Assembly: GCF_900176365.1 (NCBI RefSeq)
Contig: NZ_FWXY01000004.1
Location: forward strand, 186,001-250,000
Source of the DNA: Desulfocicer vacuolatum DSM 3385
GTDB lineage: Bacteria; Desulfobacterota; Desulfobacteria; Desulfobacterales; Desulfobacteraceae
Direction: 5' to 3'
Length of the DNA: 64,000 nt
The translations under genes were made by a program, and so were the position numbers. Below, piece by piece: positions 2,726 through 9,210 of this stretch. Below the pieces are notes generated by a model, which did not search any database, was not told where the DNA came from, and was given only the letters and a program-made list of their open reading frames with translations. Every line of letters begins with the position of its first letter. Within the stretch, counting starts at the first letter, position 1.

Positions 2726-5700
2726 TCAAGCATCCTGAAACAGCTCAAGTTGTCTGTTTTTTTCTTTTTTGGGTTGGGGTTTAAATCGGTTTTGGCTCTG
2801 TGCCTTTAATTTTTCTTCTATATCATAGACAAAGGGCGATTTTGAAGTTTTTATTGTTTTTCCATAGATTCGCCGTTTGTCTGCATGGGAAACGCATAAA
2901 ATACTTTGGGCCCGGGTCATTGCCACATAAAAAAGACGTCTCTCTTCGGCCAGGGCCAGGGCGGAAAGCGGTGTGGGGGCACCGTTTTTATCCGGCCGGG
3001 AAAAGGGAATGAGTCCGGTTTCACATCCGGTGATGAACACCACTTTAAATTCAAGGCCTTTGGAGGCATGCATGGTCATGAGTGCCACCTTTTCTGCCTG
3101 GGGGGCCAGTGTATCCACATCCCCCACCAGGCACACATGATCCAGAAAAGCAGCAGGATCCGGAATGGCTTGGGCCTCCATGAGAAGTCGTTCCAGGGTA
3201 TCTGTTCGTTTTTTCTCGGCCTTGATGAGGTGGGAAAGATCCCACAGATTGGAAAAATGATCCAGAGCCCGGTGGCTGGATTGCTCTTTTGCCGCTTCAG
3301 CCGCAGTGAGAATTTTTGCGGTGCAGTGGCATATTTTTTCATGGATATCCCGGCGCATGCCCTTGGGCGGCAAGGATGTTAAGCGACCAAGGGCTGTGTT
3401 CAAAGGGCAGTTCTGCTCCTGGAACCAGCGTTTGAGGTGTTCTCGGCTTTTTTTCCCGGTACCGGTCTTGAAATAATCCAGCAGCAGCTCAAAGTCTGTG
3501 AGGGTGCCTTTTTGACAGCCTATTTTCATGAGAGCAAGGGGCTCTTTGATGCCCGGTTGTAAAAGGGTGTTTTCCCGGTGGGCCATGTGGCAGGGGATTC
3601 CCGCTTTTTCAAGAACCTCGGCAAAAACTGCCCCCTGTTTTCTGGTGCGGTAGAGAACGGCAAAATCAGAAAAGGAAAAGTCCTCTTCTTGGGAGGCATC
3701 AATTCTGTTGGTATCCATGGAAAAGAGTGAAAGTCCGCCAGTGAGTTTTTCAATGGTTTTTCCCACGGCCACGGCCTCGGCCCGTTCCGAAGCAGACTTG
3801 AGTATCATAACGGTGTCCTTGCCGTGGATGTTGGAGAATAATTTTACACGGCTCTCTTTTTCATCCCTTTGCTTTCCGCGTTGGGTGAGCATCTGGTGGG
3901 AGGCCTCAAGAATGGTTTCTGTGGATCGATAATTTTGTTTCAAGGAAATGTTAAGTGCCCTGGGATAATCTTCTATGAATTGCCGGAAATAACGATTGTC
4001 TGATCCCCTGAATCCATAAATGGATTGATCCGGGTCCCCAATGACACAAAGCGTGTCTCCATTTCCGGCAAGGCATTTTGTCAGAAGATACTGGCCTTTG
4101 TTGACGTCCTGGTATTCGTCCACAAACAGGTGTTGAAACCGCTTCTGCAGGGTGGTGACAAGACTGGGATCATGGGTTAAAAGGGCCAGCACCTTATTAA
4201 TCAGATCTTCAAAATCCACCAGATCAAGAGATTCCAGACGCTTCTGGTACTCTTGCCACACCTGGTTCACCATCTTTTCCATGGCAATGTCTTGGATAAA
4301 ATCAAGGGGGTCTCCCGGTTGAAGCCCCTGTTGTTTGGCCCGGGAAATAAGGGTATCTGCCTGGTCAAGGGAGAGGGCCTGCCGGGAAAATGCCTGGTGG
4401 GTCAGTGTCTCTTCCAAAAGGGACAGGCGCAGAGTGTCATCCACAATGGCCGATGAAAAATCGGTGTACTCTTTAAGAATCATGAGGCCAAAAGCATGAA
4501 AGGTACAGGCACACACCTGGGCCGGAGATTCCGGGAGAAGGGTTTGTATTCTTTCTTTCATTTCCCGGGCGGCTCTGTTGGTGAAAGTCAGAGCCAGAAT
4601 GGCATCTGGAGAAATTTTTTGCTCTTTGATGAGCCAGGCGATTTTTGCTGTGATGGTGCGGGTTTTGCCGGTGCCGGGGCCTGCTGCCATGATAAGGGGG
4701 CGGTTGTGACATAAAAGGGCCTGGTGCTGCTCTTTATTTAAAGAGCCCAGGAGGTCTGCCGGTGGGGGAGATGGTGATCCTTTTATTTTTCTTTTCACCG
4801 GAGCAGGATTTTTTTCGGGCATGGGTCTTGCCCCCACCGGCACAGGTTTGCTTGGGACGCGTTTTGTTTTTTTCGGCGCAAACAGCTCCTGTTCGCCCTT
4901 GAGACGTTTTTTTTCATCGTCAGTAAACAGGCATACCCGGCCGTACTCCCCATCAAAACCCGGAGCCACATCCACCCGGTCGGTGCGCATTTTTTCAATG
5001 GCCGGTGCCAGAAGGGGGATACCCAGGGCATCAATTTCATCCAGGGGGCGCTTTAAAAGGATATCCAGTTCCGGCCCCGAGGATTCCAGAGCCCTTTCAT
5101 AAAAGGTGTTCACCTTTTTTGTTTTGGGGCCCACATTGAAAATTTCCGATAAAATATCGGTGAGGGGAATAATGCTTTGGTATCCCTGGCGGCCTGTGGG
5201 GGCATAGCCAGGGGGACGTGAAGCAAGTTCCTGGACCCGGTAGAGCACCCCAAGGGTCAAGGGCTTTCCACACACCGGGCAGATGCTGTCATGCCGAAGG
5301 GTTTCCACAGGATCAAATGAAATACCGCATTTTCGATGGCCGTCATGGTGGTATTTTCCCTCCTGGGGAAACATGTCTATGGTGCCCTTGTATTTTGTCA
5401 AATCCCCTGTTTTAAGGGCTTCTCTCACATGGTAATAGGAAAGCCCGGTGTTGAACATGGATGCATTCCTGCCAAGATACATGGGGGAGTGGGCATCGGA
5501 GCTTGCCACCAGTCGCACATGGTCCAGGTCGGCCACCCGCCAGTTCATGGGCGGGTCTGATGAGAGGCCGGTTTCCACGGCAAAGATGTGGCGGGAAAGA
5601 TTTCCAAAGCACTCTTCGATGGTGTCAAAACCTGATTTGGAACCTAACATGGAAAACCAGGGGGTCCATATATGGGCCGGGATGAGAAAGGCTTCATCTG

Positions 5701-6163
5701 AGATATCCAGCATGATTTCAAGGAGTTTTTCCGCATCAAGGCCCAGTATGGGCCGTCCGTCCGAGGCAATGTTGCCGATTTTATCCAGCTGGACATTGAA
5801 TCTTTTTACTTCTTCTAAATCCGGAAAGTAGATGAGATTATGGTTTTTTCTCACCCGGTTGTTTTTTTTATATATGGAGCTGATTTCACATTGTAGAATG
5901 AATCTGACCTTGTTTTTGCAGCTGCCTGGGATCTGGGCATCCAGGGGAGCTGTAAATTTTTTCTTTAATTTAAATAATCCCGGGGCTGCGGGTTCCAGTT
6001 TTTCTTCAATCTCTTTGATCCATCCGGGGTGGGTGAAGTCCCCTGTTCCCACCAGAGTAACGCCTTTTTTCTGGGCCCAGATGTACAGACTTTCAAGGGT
6101 AAGGTTTTTGGCAGTGGCTCTGGAAAAGTGAGAGTGGAGATGTAAATCTGCTATGAATTCCAT
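2726..6163 (-). CDS. PHP/endonuclease Q-like domain fused to UvrD-family helicase
   Basis: This 1145-residue protein joins two DNA-repair modules. Residues 1 to about 390 are a PHP metallophosphoesterase domain starting with DLHLHSHFSRAT (metal ligands H8 and H10). A zinc-binding insert with paired CxxC-type cysteines (CGISF...CPVCG) lies near residues 280-303, followed by a helix-hairpin-helix-like LGIPLLAPAIEKM segment. That order matches the TIGR00375/endonuclease Q family, which cuts DNA next to deaminated bases. After a basic, proline-rich linker comes a complete SF1A helicase: Walker A AGPGTGKT near 490, Walker B FVDEYQDVN near 680, MHASKGLEF, and RRLFYVAMTRAQ near 1075. The ATG chosen sits directly before the PHP motif. 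A 19-codon upstream extension is possible but has no better ribosome-binding site. I infer nicking of damaged DNA followed by unwinding. Confidence 0.88.
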   Translation of the reverse strand: MEFIADLHLHSHFSRATAKNLTLESLYIWAQKKGVTLVGTGDFTHPGWIKEIEEKLEPAAPGLFKLKKKFTAPLDAQIPGSCKNKVRFILQCEISSIYKKNNRVRKNHNLIYFPDLEEVKRFNVQLDKIGNIASDGRPILGLDAEKLLEIMLDISDEAFLIPAHIWTPWFSMLGSKSGFDTIEECFGNLSRHIFAVETGLSSDPPMNWRVADLDHVRLVASSDAHSPMYLGRNASMFNTGLSYYHVREALKTGDLTKYKGTIDMFPQEGKYHHDGHRKCGISFDPVETLRHDSICPVCGKPLTLGVLYRVQELASRPPGYAPTGRQGYQSIIPLTDILSEIFNVGPKTKKVNTFYERALESSGPELDILLKRPLDEIDALGIPLLAPAIEKMRTDRVDVAPGFDGEYGRVCLFTDDEKKRLKGEQELFAPKKTKRVPSKPVPVGARPMPEKNPAPVKRKIKGSPSPPPADLLGSLNKEQHQALLCHNRPLIMAAGPGTGKTRTITAKIAWLIKEQKISPDAILALTFTNRAAREMKERIQTLLPESPAQVCACTFHAFGLMILKEYTDFSSAIVDDTLRLSLLEETLTHQAFSRQALSLDQADTLISRAKQQGLQPGDPLDFIQDIAMEKMVNQVWQEYQKRLESLDLVDFEDLINKVLALLTHDPSLVTTLQKRFQHLFVDEYQDVNKGQYLLTKCLAGNGDTLCVIGDPDQSIYGFRGSDNRYFRQFIEDYPRALNISLKQNYRSTETILEASHQMLTQRGKQRDEKESRVKLFSNIHGKDTVMILKSASERAEAVAVGKTIEKLTGGLSLFSMDTNRIDASQEEDFSFSDFAVLYRTRKQGAVFAEVLEKAGIPCHMAHRENTLLQPGIKEPLALMKIGCQKGTLTDFELLLDYFKTGTGKKSREHLKRWFQEQNCPLNTALGRLTSLPPKGMRRDIHEKICHCTAKILTAAEAAKEQSSHRALDHFSNLWDLSHLIKAEKKRTDTLERLLMEAQAIPDPAAFLDHVCLVGDVDTLAPQAEKVALMTMHASKGLEFKVVFITGCETGLIPFSRPDKNGAPTPLSALALAEERRLFYVAMTRAQSILCVSHADKRRIYGKTIKTSKSPFVYDIEEKLKAQSQNRFKPQPKKEKNRQLELFQDA

Positions 6164-6599: not shown

Positions 6600-7571
6600 T
6601 TGAATGATAAGGATCGTGCCGGCATTGAGATGTGGGTAAAACAAAGAAAAGACAACATTGAACTGGGAACGGTGCTTTTGGGAACCCCCGAAGATGCTGT
6701 TTTGGAAAAATTTTGTGGTTCTCTCATGGAAACAGCGCCTTTTATAACTGTGAAATCTCTGGAAAATAAGGGAAAACTGCTCCCGGAAATCCAGGTGATG
6801 GAAAATGTTTCTTTTTCCGCCCTTCCCCTGGAAAAACTGCTGCCCCCTTTTCTGGAAAGTCTGGACCTTGCCGGAGGGAGCCCTGCGGTGATGGAACAAG
6901 GGGTTAAAGCGCTGCTTTCAAACATTGACATGCCCGTGGACCTGAAACTTTATGTGGCAAGCCAATGCCCCCACTGTCCCGGGGTGATTCGTTCCATGGT
7001 TCACCTGGCCGCCGCCTCAAAACAGGTGCATCTCCATGTCATTGACGGTACATGGTTTGACAAAGCAGCTGCCGATGACGGTGTTTTATCAGCCCCCTGT
7101 TTAATTTTGGACAATGATTTCCGGTGGACGGGTGATGTGTCCATGAAAGAAGTGGTGGAGATGATGATCCGTCGTGATCCTGCAACCCTTACCACGGCCT
7201 CTTTGAGGAGAGTTCTGGAAGAGGGTAATGCGGCCTGGATTTTTGAAAAAATGAAAGCCGCCAATGTCATTTTTCCCGGTTTTATCGGCCTTCTCATCCA
7301 TGAAATATGGTCTGTTCGTCTGGGGGCCATGGTGGTGGTGGAGGAGCTGGCCCAGGATGTCCCTGATCTGGCACTGCAACTGGTACCCCTTATTTTGCCC
7401 GGATTTGAGGGTGCCGATGTCACTGTAAAGGGAGATATTCTTTATGCCCTGGGGGAAGTGGGGGATCTGTCTGTGGCAGACACCATTGCCCGGATGATGG
7501 CAACATTTGAAGATGAAGCCCTTGTGGAGGCTGCTGAAGATGCCCTGGCTGCCATAAAAGAGAGGGCGTGA
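6600..7571 (+). CDS. Thioredoxin-fold protein with C-terminal HEAT-like repeats
   Basis: This is a 323-residue soluble protein. The first half resembles the doubled thioredoxin fold of glutaredoxin-like protein disulfide oxidoreductases, with a redox-type CPHC motif at residues 123-126 in the context LKLYVASQCPHCPGVIR. The cis-proline region may be LSAPCLIL. From about residue 210 the sequence turns to helical repeats (RLGAMVVVEELAQ, DILYALGEVGDLSVADTIARMM, EALVEAAEDALAAIK). These look like HEAT or PBS-lyase-type repeats used for protein contacts. The stop is followed after one base by the next gene, so the two form an operon. A redox or chaperone role on the partner is a guess. The CPHC motif itself is clear. 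Confidence 0.7.
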   Translation: MNDKDRAGIEMWVKQRKDNIELGTVLLGTPEDAVLEKFCGSLMETAPFITVKSLENKGKLLPEIQVMENVSFSALPLEKLLPPFLESLDLAGGSPAVMEQGVKALLSNIDMPVDLKLYVASQCPHCPGVIRSMVHLAAASKQVHLHVIDGTWFDKAAADDGVLSAPCLILDNDFRWTGDVSMKEVVEMMIRRDPATLTTASLRRVLEEGNAAWIFEKMKAANVIFPGFIGLLIHEIWSVRLGAMVVVEELAQDVPDLALQLVPLILPGFEGADVTVKGDILYALGEVGDLSVADTIARMMATFEDEALVEAAEDALAAIKERA

Positions 7572-7572
7572 A

Positions 7573-9210
7573 ATGCAGAAAAAAGAAATAAAAGAGCTTC
7601 GCACCTGTGTGACCGGGGAGGGTGTTTTTAAAATTGGAATTCACACCCCTTCTTTTTTTGTGGATAATTTCAGAGAGCACGACTACGTTACTTCCCTTGG
7701 GAGTTCTCCAGATGGCCGGGTGGTCACCAATCATGTAAATTTTCCCAAAGAGGGTGTCAGTGCGCCCCATGCCGACACTATTTATGAAATTCCCAACGCT
7801 TTTCCCTTTAAGGGAACCACTTATATTAATTCCCGGTGGGCCGATGCCACTGCCGAAAACATTGAAAACATAGCGCTTTCCCCCAGACAAGACACCTCCC
7901 TGTGGGGTACCCTGGACGGCTGGGGCCGGGAAAACAGGGTGGCAAAAAAAAATATTGAAGCACTTTTCAAGAAGATGCCGGGGACGCTTCAAATTGCCCT
8001 TGCAGAATCAAGCACCGATCCCCATGATCTTGTCAGGCTGGCACAAATATCGTGTACCTTTGAATTTGATACCAACGGTATTCCCCTGGGACTTGTGTAT
8101 GAAAGAAAACAGGGCAAAATGGTTCCTGCCATCAAAAAAAATGAACTTTTTGAGGTGGTGGCCAACAACCCCCATCTGCCGGACCCATACAAGCGGGCCA
8201 TGGTGCTTTGTCCCGGTGTACAGGGAGACAGTGCCATCACAGCAGAATGGCACCACAAAAAGGATCAAAGTCACGTATTTGAATATTTAAGACAGAATAG
8301 TTACATTCCCTGGGGACATTTTGCAGCCAACACCGCCGATGATACCGTGCGGTATTGCATTGCCGATTTGAGTCTTACAGACATGGAAGGCATGCGCCAT
8401 CTGTGTTACCAGAGGATTTACGTGATGCTGGCCCGGCAGATGGGCATTGATATTCCCCGGACCCGGCAGCGGATATCCCGGGAAGAGCTTGAAAAATTGC
8501 GGATAAAGCTCATGGCATCCATTGAATCAATGGACAGCAACAACCCCTTGGGGTTTAACGGCAGTTTGTGGGGATGGAATTTTGGGTTCAGCTGCTCCCA
8601 GTCAGGATACCGTCTCCATGCTTCCCACCAGCAGATCCACCAGCAGTATGCCATGATTCCCTGTGAGGTGCCCGGAAAAGACCATGGGCGTTTTCTTTCC
8701 TCCTATGCCTGTGGGGATATGGTGGCAGATTTTATCAAGGATTACCGGAACTGCACCCAACGCAGTTTTTTTGAAAATTATCTTGCCGCCATTCGCACCA
8801 ACGGGAGGGTGGATGGTAATGAAAACGGGCCCCGGCGTCTGGAGGTGTTTGAAGATGAAAATATATTGCTTTTTGTTCCCAAGGCCCAGACATCCCAATG
8901 GGAGCTTCAGATGATGCCCCTGCGGCCCTGTGGTAACATTCTGGAGGCAGATGATGCCATGCGAAAATCCCTGGACCGGGGAATTTTTATCGCCCTGAAT
9001 GTCTTGGAAAAACTGGGTGCCCGCATGGTCACCTGTCTGGAGTATGCCAAGCGTTTTGATGACAGTTCAGCGGATCAGCAGCTGTTGTATGCCTTTTTAC
9101 CAAGACTCCCCCATTCCCCCGGCGCGTTCAGTGAAGCCCAGCTGCGGTGGATAACAGGACATTATCCCGAAGATTTTGCCTTGGCGTGTCGCAATAAACT
9201 TACTCCTTGA
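7573..9210 (+). CDS. Large protein of unknown function, possible GalT/HIT-like C-terminal half
   Basis: I do not recognise this 545-residue cytoplasmic protein as a named family. Near residues 330-365 it has NPLGFNGSLWGWNFGFS followed by a histidine-rich RLHASHQQIHQQYAMIP. The 'glycine/asparagine strand then H-x-x-H-x-x-x-H-Q' layout recalls the active-site region of GalT and other HIT-superfamily enzymes, but the spacing is not canonical. There are several conserved-looking Cys and His residues but no signal peptide or membrane span. It follows the thioredoxin/HEAT gene by one base, with a GAGAGGG ribosome-binding site, so the two products probably act together. Nucleotide-sugar or nucleotidyl chemistry is only a suggestion. 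Confidence 0.65.
   Translation: MQKKEIKELRTCVTGEGVFKIGIHTPSFFVDNFREHDYVTSLGSSPDGRVVTNHVNFPKEGVSAPHADTIYEIPNAFPFKGTTYINSRWADATAENIENIALSPRQDTSLWGTLDGWGRENRVAKKNIEALFKKMPGTLQIALAESSTDPHDLVRLAQISCTFEFDTNGIPLGLVYERKQGKMVPAIKKNELFEVVANNPHLPDPYKRAMVLCPGVQGDSAITAEWHHKKDQSHVFEYLRQNSYIPWGHFAANTADDTVRYCIADLSLTDMEGMRHLCYQRIYVMLARQMGIDIPRTRQRISREELEKLRIKLMASIESMDSNNPLGFNGSLWGWNFGFSCSQSGYRLHASHQQIHQQYAMIPCEVPGKDHGRFLSSYACGDMVADFIKDYRNCTQRSFFENYLAAIRTNGRVDGNENGPRRLEVFEDENILLFVPKAQTSQWELQMMPLRPCGNILEADDAMRKSLDRGIFIALNVLEKLGARMVTCLEYAKRFDDSSADQQLLYAFLPRLPHSPGAFSEAQLRWITGHYPEDFALACRNKLTP

Follow-up and report, generated by a model that had tools for sequence, protein, structure and literature searches.

The window, a 64,000-nucleotide stretch of the genome of the sulfate reducer Desulfocicer vacuolatum DSM 3385 (contig NZ_FWXY01000004.1, positions 186,001 to 250,000), encodes on its minus strand a single intact ORF of 1145 amino acids in which an endonuclease Q (EndoQ) is fused to an SF1A helicase with a C-terminal β-clamp-type motif. 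The protein has the conserved catalytic residues of EndoQ, the helicase motifs and clamp-type motifs, and the fusion was probably preceded by an operon. We propose that this single chain, recruited by the sliding clamp, probably initiates alternative excision repair at deaminated bases, with its activities and their coupling predicted from sequence. Such a one-step start and drive of base repair is probable because a nuclease of a type that cuts next to deaminated bases, a strand-separating motor, and a clamp tag are combined in one protein. No description of this EndoQ, helicase, and clamp-tag design was found in the literature searched. The coordinates of the gene and its parts are summarized in Table 1.

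Table 1. Features of the EndoQ-helicase fusion gene, in window coordinates.
Feature	Position	Strand	Comment
EndoQ-helicase fusion gene	2726..6163	-	1145 aa, start ATG at 6163, stop codon 2726-2728; homologues found
Endonuclease Q part, residues 1-412	4928..6163	-	PHP catalytic domain, zinc ribbon, C-terminal domain
Putative zinc ribbon H276-x2-C279...C295-x2-C298	5270..5338	-	His at first ligand position, not Cys
Junction motif EQELF, residues 424-428	4880..4894	-	Degenerate GQxxLF clamp-type form
Linker, residues 413-469	4757..4927	-	Largely low model confidence
SF1A (PcrA/UvrD/Rep-type) helicase part, residues 470-1120	2804..4756	-	Sequence, motifs, fold
C-terminal β-clamp-type motif QLELF, residues 1138-1142	2738..2752	-	Sequence motif

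The initial annotation had described an EndoQ-type PHP nuclease joined to a complete SF1A helicase, and this description holds: the reading frame is uninterrupted, both halves were matched by sequence and by fold, the residue map bears out the nuclease, and all seven motifs support the helicase. Its further suggestion, that the chain could nick beside uracil or hypoxanthine and then unwind the strand, is plausible. A local chimera or assembly join was ruled out, given that the same one-frame architecture occurs in 49 of the 53 fetched loci of the order as well as in the window, and again in other phyla. Purifying selection acts on both halves in eight pairs of relatives (dN/dS 0.07–0.14 for EndoQ, 0.11–0.31 for the helicase), and the linker exceeded both domains in all seven pairs for which its dN/dS could be computed. 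This selection and the recurrence of the fusion in dozens of other genomes disfavor chance or an assembly artifact. The structure model of the whole protein is of moderate confidence (pLDDT 66.9, pTM 0.44), with the mutual placement of the halves unreadable. A search upstream of the gene for regulatory palindromes returned nothing convincing.

The N-terminal half aligns with EndoQ of Pyrococcus furiosus (PfuEndoQ; 5zb8, 7k30–7k33) over residues 5–412, i.e., the whole EndoQ length, with a best E-value of 4.6e-47. By predicted fold, it matches 5zb8 and 7k30, the latter a DNA-bound EndoQ, with TM(target) of 0.83–0.85. The TIGR00375 model covers residues 5–410 at 152.7 bits, below its curated cut-off of 326.6; this score is reached in 0 of 148 genomes examined across the phylum, stand-alone EndoQs included, so the cut-off is narrow. 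Residues E93, H108, H164, G199, S201, and D223 of the window protein correspond to Pfu E76, H84, H139, G169, S171, and D193, of which E76, H84, H139, and D193 are catalytic metal ligands. None of these six residues varies among the 70 aligned rows (the window and 69 loci), so the comparison with characterized EndoQ proposed in the initial annotation left no mapped catalytic residue missing. In PfuEndoQ, loss of E76, H84, or H139 is reported to abolish activity, and H139, G169, and S171 are described as the residues of steric selection (PMC8307549). The zinc-binding cysteines expected in the EndoQ order were recovered in part: C279, C295, and C298 are present, as is Cys at these three positions in 69/70 rows, but the first ligand position is His276 in the window protein and His in 69/70 rows (a gap in the other). 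Histidine can in principle ligate zinc, and zinc binding by the window ribbon is putative. Near the pocket, three positions are also substituted relative to Pfu throughout the 70 rows (A140 to I, F141 to W, L168 to T). Given these substitutions and the replacement of the first zinc cysteine by histidine, the substrate range may differ from that of PfuEndoQ. Overall, the half shares with endonuclease Q (PF1551/TK0887; TIGR00375/COG1379) its full-length alignment, catalytic and steric residues, PHP metal ligands, ribbon position, and a clamp-type motif following the domain; it differs in being fused to a helicase, in a ribbon that begins with His, and in a clamp motif of the QLxLF (β) type rather than a PIP box for PCNA. 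The familiar occurrence of EndoQ in Thermococcales and some bacteria, also noted in the initial annotation, agrees with the papers cited here.

Residues 470–1120 match the PcrA/UvrD/Rep helicases (1pjr, E-value 1e-80), with the UvrD structure 4c2t recovered by predicted fold at TM(target) of 0.78. The Q motif, Walker A, and motifs II, III, IV, V, and VI are all present (LNKEQ, GPGTGKT, DEYQD, GDPDQSIY, NYRS, HASKGLEF, and VAMTRA), and each motif pattern occurs in 71–75 of 75 fused proteins. Helicases of the PcrA/UvrD/Rep group have 3′–5′ polarity, and the window helicase would by family membership translocate and unwind in this direction. It shares all motifs and the overall fold with these SF1A helicases (1pjr, 2is1, 4c2t, 1uaa), but is not orthologous to any of PcrA, UvrD, and Rep: it falls in a clade of its own, carries an N-terminal EndoQ, and does not reach the equivalog cut-offs (TIGR01073, 411 bits against 911). 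The PcrA model match ends at position 648 of 725, and beyond it lies a variable tail bearing QLxLF.

This tail motif is a recurrent feature of the fusion. Q[LM]xLF was found at the C-terminus of 70/75 fused proteins, compared with 0/25 housekeeping helicase rows (23 distinct genes) and 0/710 neighboring ORFs. The β-clamp consensus is given as QLxLF, located mostly at protein C-termini (PMC4549789), and the QLELF tail of the window protein is thus a predicted DnaN-binding motif. A related motif, GQxxLF, lies at the C-terminus of EndoQs from operons and, in many fused proteins, at the junction; the window's own junction copy is a weaker form. Clamp motifs are less regular in stand-alone EndoQs, as the strict C-terminal motif was present in 12 of 33 such ORFs. 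Archaeal EndoQ is reported to bind PCNA through a C-terminal PIP box and to be stimulated by it, and the same source notes clamp motifs in bacterial EndoQ (PMC4858679). The window protein would share with this Thermococcales module a short C-terminal motif for the sliding clamp, but the archaeal EndoQ stands alone and binds PCNA, whereas here one polypeptide includes the helicase and carries β-type motifs. Clamp-type motifs, operon precursors, and a single origin of the fused helicases are features beyond those of the initial annotation.

EndoQ matches were detected in 54 of the 58 genomes sampled in the order, and in 50 of these 54 EndoQ and helicase lie in one frame. The same fusion also occurs in Bacteroidota and Chlorobiota, and neighboring genes recur around the locus within the window's family. 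In the helicase tree, the fused helicases form one clade (support 100/98) apart from housekeeping UvrD/PcrA, which rules out independent capture of a housekeeping UvrD in each lineage. Their sister clade consists of separate helicase genes directly downstream of stand-alone EndoQ, an arrangement seen at three loci (L119, L133, L135) and, within one class, in 6 of 20 additional genomes; an operon therefore probably preceded a single fusion event. None of the 25 housekeeping rows falls within the clade that unites fused with operon helicases; all 77 members of this clade were collected at EndoQ loci, so it may also occur elsewhere. The housekeeping rows came from a PF00580 search of relatives regardless of EndoQ, with length and cover filters, and every one of the 25 genomes searched contained two or more PF00580 matches. 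In the EndoQ tree, seven sequences that sit among the fused ones (L020, L084, L136–L140) had no helicase in the fetched flank, which indicates that the helicase is not always needed.

A few loci depart from the intact form. The locus L061 (genome G054) was dropped as a split operon and counted as a broken or misread fusion, because a stop codon lies within the helicase Q motif. In L103 (G027), the frame breaks inside the zinc ribbon; the frames were left unjoined, and the second one (the EndoQ end plus helicase) was kept among the 74 and 75 proteins in which tails and motifs were counted. A contig end truncates L099 (G002), with the remainder at the start of another contig, and just two short end pieces of the fusion are left in G024. 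A TGA in an alignment to a paralogue from the same genome does not mark a gene defect, the paralogue frame being 640 amino acids long and stop-free.

In the mechanism we favor, the QLxLF tail, accompanied in many relatives by the second motif at the junction, would bind the DnaN sliding clamp. The EndoQ half would flip out uracil or hypoxanthine, perhaps also xanthine or an AP site, and cut the phosphodiester bond 5′ of the lesion, leaving a 3′-OH and a 5′-phosphate on the lesion strand; on which side of a lesion EndoQ cuts, and which substrates it accepts, is established. The fused helicase would then load onto the intact strand at the nick and travel along it 3′ to 5′, displacing the lesion strand as a flap that starts at its 5′ end. 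A clamp-bound polymerase could extend the 3′-OH, with a flap nuclease and ligase completing repair. The same nick-unwinding geometry is used by a nickase with Rep or PcrA in rolling-circle replication. The proposed process would share with it the nick, an intact-strand SF1A helicase of 3′–5′ polarity, and 3′-OH extension, but would be lesion-specific, lack a covalent 5′ intermediate, and be carried out by a single chain. A helicase that takes away the excised fragment was already depicted in one model of a 2015 paper on EndoQ (PMC4357722, Figure 10). The fusion, operons, and clamp motifs name candidate partners for lesion-strand removal and polymerase arrival after the EndoQ nick, and allow the pathway to be tested on a single purified protein. 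If the proposal is true, the enzyme would be a self-contained lesion nickase-unwindase.

Other readings of the same architecture were weighed against this nick-then-unwind initiator. The helicase could instead serve replication-coupled surveillance as a searching motor behind the fork, on clamp-marked or single-stranded DNA, that presents uracil (misincorporated dUMP included) to EndoQ, with unwinding preceding the nick. The conserved clamp motif and the reported cleavage of U and Hx in single-stranded DNA by EndoQ (PMC11354406) are consistent with this order of action, but sequence does not distinguish it from the reverse, and the nick would sever the helicase's own track if both parts act on the lesion strand; we consider this unlikely. 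It appears decidedly unlikely that EndoQ has changed specificity, for example toward AP sites, mismatches, or another modified base, with the helicase serving an excision tract like that of mismatch repair: the substitutions near the pocket and in the zinc ribbon recur consistently across the rows, but every mapped catalytic and steric-selection residue is kept.

The halves might also be joined merely for dosage or recruitment, the helicase working in general repair while the nuclease acts alone, as the nested stand-alone EndoQs and the variable linker would allow. The exclusion of all housekeeping rows from the clade collected at EndoQ loci, together with the two or more PF00580 matches per genome, argues against this view and leaves it highly unlikely. 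We give very little credence to a defensive role resembling Gabija, in which a nuclease and a UvrD-type helicase would act against uracil-containing or modified phage DNA. The PADLOC models GajB and RTasHel match the helicase part, and antiviral roles have been suggested for bacillar EndoQ in a review (PMC8307549). However, the PADLOC matches listed (25 of 53) all lie at residues 471–1121, a generic UvrD region, and the prevalence of EndoQ across the order, with recurring neighbors in the family, is what an inherited core gene would show, not a patchy defense island. In addition, the nuclease partner in Gabija (GajAB), GajA, is an OLD-family protein, whereas the nuclease half of the window protein is EndoQ.

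We also surveyed uracil-DNA glycosylase (UDG) and EndoV in the window's family (f1). EndoV had no match in the window's genome or in any of the 35 family genomes, and the only UDG-like protein of the window's genome is without motif A. No UDG with a recognizable motif A was found in 28 of the 35 genomes, including that of the window; the other seven have UDG candidates that are possibly active (G007, G012, G019, G022) or uncertain (G008, G027, G032). Three family genomes (G009, G017, G024) contain neither an intact EndoQ-helicase nor a motif-A UDG, and G027, with its frame break, is a fourth without an intact fusion; the first three are many-contig drafts and G027 is not. A literature search on Desulfobacter and uracil-DNA glycosylase found nothing relevant. 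That intact UDG is scarce in this family, and EndoV not found, likewise goes beyond the initial annotation. It is conceivable, though rather doubtful, that the clamp-tethered nick-and-unwind chain is the sole dedicated initiator of U/Hx repair in the window's genome and most of its family, following decay of a family-4 UDG and in the absence of EndoV, and would thus represent an undescribed bacterial pathway. The findings suggest how bacteria without a recognizable active UDG or EndoV could cope with deamination. Elsewhere in the order, 17 of 23 genomes from other families encode a UDG whose motif A is intact, mostly alongside the fusion; replacement of UDG is thereby ruled out as a general explanation of the fusion, which is therefore not simply a substitute for UDG.

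Both halves of the EndoQ-helicase fusion lie in one intact open reading frame, whose coordinates are tabulated with those of its neighbors. A profile search of NCBIfam placed the EndoQ family TIGR00375 at residues 5–410, and phmmer against the PDB aligned residues 5–412 with the solved archaeal enzyme PfuEndoQ (E = 4.6e-47) and residues 470–1120 with PcrA, UvrD, and Rep (best E = 1e-80). Pfam and NCBIfam also identified a UvrD-type helicase, with TIGR01073 spanning residues 471–1132. All seven helicase motifs are present, and each simple motif pattern was found in 71–75 of the 75 fused proteins, a count that includes two partial rows (L101 and L103) whose Walker A precedes the tested stretch. 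These matches confirm the proposal of the initial annotation that an EndoQ-type PHP domain is joined to an SF1A helicase. In an AlphaFold model of moderate confidence, built on 16 aligned sequences (pLDDT 66.9, pTM 0.44), Foldseek matched the EndoQ half to 5zb8/7k30 (TM target 0.83–0.85) and the helicase half to UvrD 4c2t (TM target 0.78). Codon comparison of eight pairs of relatives indicates that purifying selection acts on both halves, with dN/dS of 0.07–0.14 for the EndoQ part and 0.11–0.31 for the helicase part; the linker exceeded both domains in all seven computable pairs.

The mapped residues of the EndoQ active site are conserved. In PfuEndoQ, E76, H84, and H139 ligate the catalytic zinc, and replacing them with alanine abolishes activity; H139, G169, and S171 keep out T and A (PMC8307549). 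The equivalents of these residues and of D193 in the window's protein are E93, H108, H164, G199, S201, and D223, and all six are identical in 70 of 70 aligned rows (the window and 69 loci, excluding PfuEndoQ and later-fetched stand-alone EndoQs); the suggested alignment check found every mapped metal and steric residue in place. Within the zinc ribbon, His276 occupies the position of PfuEndoQ Cys249, with His in 69 rows and a gap in one. At three pocket-adjacent positions (A140>I, F141>W, and L168>T) none of the 70 rows has the PfuEndoQ residue, and the substrate range of the fused EndoQ may therefore differ from that of the archaeal enzyme.

We surveyed the fusion at several taxonomic levels. 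Of 58 genomes sampled in the order, 35 of them members of the window's family, 54 have an EndoQ match. Besides the window, 53 loci were fetched, and 49 of these encode EndoQ and helicase as a single frame, truncated at a contig end in some cases (50 of 54 with the window). The exceptions are L084, where the helicase is missing, L099, which meets a contig end, and two otherwise ordinary fused genes: L061 (genome G054) has a stop codon within the helicase Q motif, and L103 (G027) has a frame break within the EndoQ zinc ribbon. Either decay or sequencing error could account for both of these. Across the phylum, 104 of 148 genomes at least 90% complete have EndoQ matches; by-eye counting in the table gave 42 of the 104 with frames of at least 850 aa, and all 11 long frames inspected contain the helicase. 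A search for close relatives in named genomes, through which the Bacteroidota were sampled, returned 19 loci, two of them cut by contig ends (L016 and L021); the 16 fused ones come from Bacteroidota, Prolixibacteraceae isolates among them, and from one MAG each of Chlorobiota and Aminicenantes. Two shorter fusions of family f56, L141 and L142 (G086 and G171; 978 and 992 aa), have the most diverged helicases, at 28% to the window and on a long branch inside the fused clade. We found no description of the fusion in the open-access listings and text passages searched. Homologues from Bacillus and Desulfovibrio appear in the EndoQ literature (PMC4357722; PMC4858679), and a long homologue may be among those whose domains are drawn with lengths in Figure 9A of PMC4357722.

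Phylogenetic analysis is most simply read as an EndoQ-helicase gene pair that underwent one fusion, followed by several later losses. Stand-alone EndoQ is directly followed by a separate helicase gene at L119 (G165), L133 (G123), and L135 (G196). In the class of G165, 36 genomes have an EndoQ match and none has a fused-length frame; in 20 further genomes of this class, the helicase gene adjoins EndoQ in six and lies ~3 kb away in a seventh, the flank of one locus (L234) being too short to tell. A careful helicase tree of 64 of 106 rows, omitting near-copies, many housekeeping rows, the long-branch L149, and the broken L061, resolved separate clades for 49 fused rows (100/98), three operon rows (98/83), and 12 housekeeping and PDB rows (100/99). 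In a quick tree of 105 rows, fused and operon helicases exclude the housekeeping ones (99) and L061 falls inside the fused clade. In a quick EndoQ tree (110 rows, some forks weak), fused forms lie inside the operon forms, and most stand-alone forms branch outside both. Seven stand-alone EndoQs are nested among the fused ones, and no helicase remnants were found beside them within the fetched flanks.

The fusion protein ends in RQLELFQDA, matching the published β-clamp consensus of QLxLF close to the C terminus (PMC4549789). Of the 74 fused proteins whose C terminus is complete, 69 have Q[LM]xLF within the last 20 residues (70 of 75 including the window), and in 50 of those 69 it forms the exact end; the five exceptions (L066, L142, L147, L149, and L150) have related tails. 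The strict C-terminal motif is present in 12 of 33 stand-alone EndoQ ORFs, and it was absent from all 25 rows (23 distinct) of housekeeping UvrD/Rep-type helicases from relatives and from 710 neighboring ORFs (mechanically called, at least 120 aa). PCNA binds and stimulates archaeal EndoQ via a C-terminal PIP box, and bacterial homologues have been noted to carry clamp motifs in their C-terminal region (PMC4858679). The EndoQ-helicase junction, located in 71 of 75 fused proteins and not found in four, carries QxxL[FW] in 25 of the 71, against a mean of 0.7 and a maximum of 5 across 500 shuffles. Its form, GQxTLF or GQxSLF, is that of the C termini of stand-alone operon EndoQs, and we read it from sequence as a probable leftover of the ancestral EndoQ end. 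The window's version, EQELF, is weak.

PcrA, UvrD, and Rep translocate 3'–5'. EndoQ cutting leaves 3'-OH and 5'-phosphate ends (PMC4357722). A 3'–5' motor that loads onto the intact strand at the nick would displace the strand 3' of the nick, with the lesion at its start, and the free 3'-OH could be used by a clamp-bound polymerase. The Figure 10 legend of the 2015 EndoQ paper has strand-displacement synthesis and, in its second model, EndoV cutting the other side and a helicase removing the cut piece (PMC4357722). The fusion protein would supply that helicase in cis, with a clamp contact in its tail; unwinding may follow or precede the nick, as the sequence is compatible with either order.

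We also examined the uracil and hypoxanthine repair context. Profile searches for EndoV (PF04493) gave no match in the 35 genomes of the window's family (f1) and matches in five of the 58 order genomes. The UDG superfamily (PF03167) gave 39 matches in 32 family genomes, all weak (at most 69.8 bits), and inspection of every sequence located the family-4 motif A, GE(A/G)PG (PMC10359453), in one, a different 136-aa frame of G012. A different protein in G019 carries AEAP, and G008, G027, and G032 have an AEALGYQGG type of uncertain assignment. G007 and G022 encode a superfamily protein with GMNPGP and HPSPAS, which we take to be SMUG1-like. No motif-A UDG was seen in the other 28 family genomes, the window's included: 24 have a family-4-like protein without motif A, G002, G005, and G014 have no match, and G001 has an 84-aa UDG-like piece that does not extend to the motif A position. 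The only superfamily match in the window's genome, L152 (G000:C63, 279262–279609, reverse strand), is of this family-4-like type without motif A and seems inactive; similar proteins recur in the family. Motif A is present in 17 of the 23 genomes of the order's other families; G040, G043, G045, G047, and G054 lack it and G041 has the SMUG1-like type only. Two patterns speak against a simple replacement of UDG by the fusion: G009, G017, and G024 of the window's family have neither an intact EndoQ-helicase nor a motif-A UDG, and most other-family genomes carry both. The window's genome has PF01261 and PF03372 matches, and some uracil incision by Nfo- or ExoIII-like enzymes may therefore occur.

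In 20 relative loci, a homologue of the small ORF downstream of the fusion likewise follows directly on the same strand; in three others it sits elsewhere. The window's copy matched no Pfam or NCBIfam family, and it is possibly a third operon member.

The fusion gene and its neighbors in the window
Feature	Position	Strand	Remarks
EndoQ-helicase fusion	2726–6163	-	1145 aa
Small ORF, about 120 aa	2361–2723	-	Starts 2 nt past fusion stop codon
Thioredoxin-domain protein (PF13192), divergent neighbor	6600–7571	+	Pfam
545-aa protein, divergent neighbor	7573–9210	+	No Pfam/NCBIfam match

On the same contig, ~6.6 kb before the window start, DsrA (dissimilatory sulfite reductase alpha) scores above its curated cut-off (G000:C41:178102–179382), and the organism is therefore probably a sulfate reducer.
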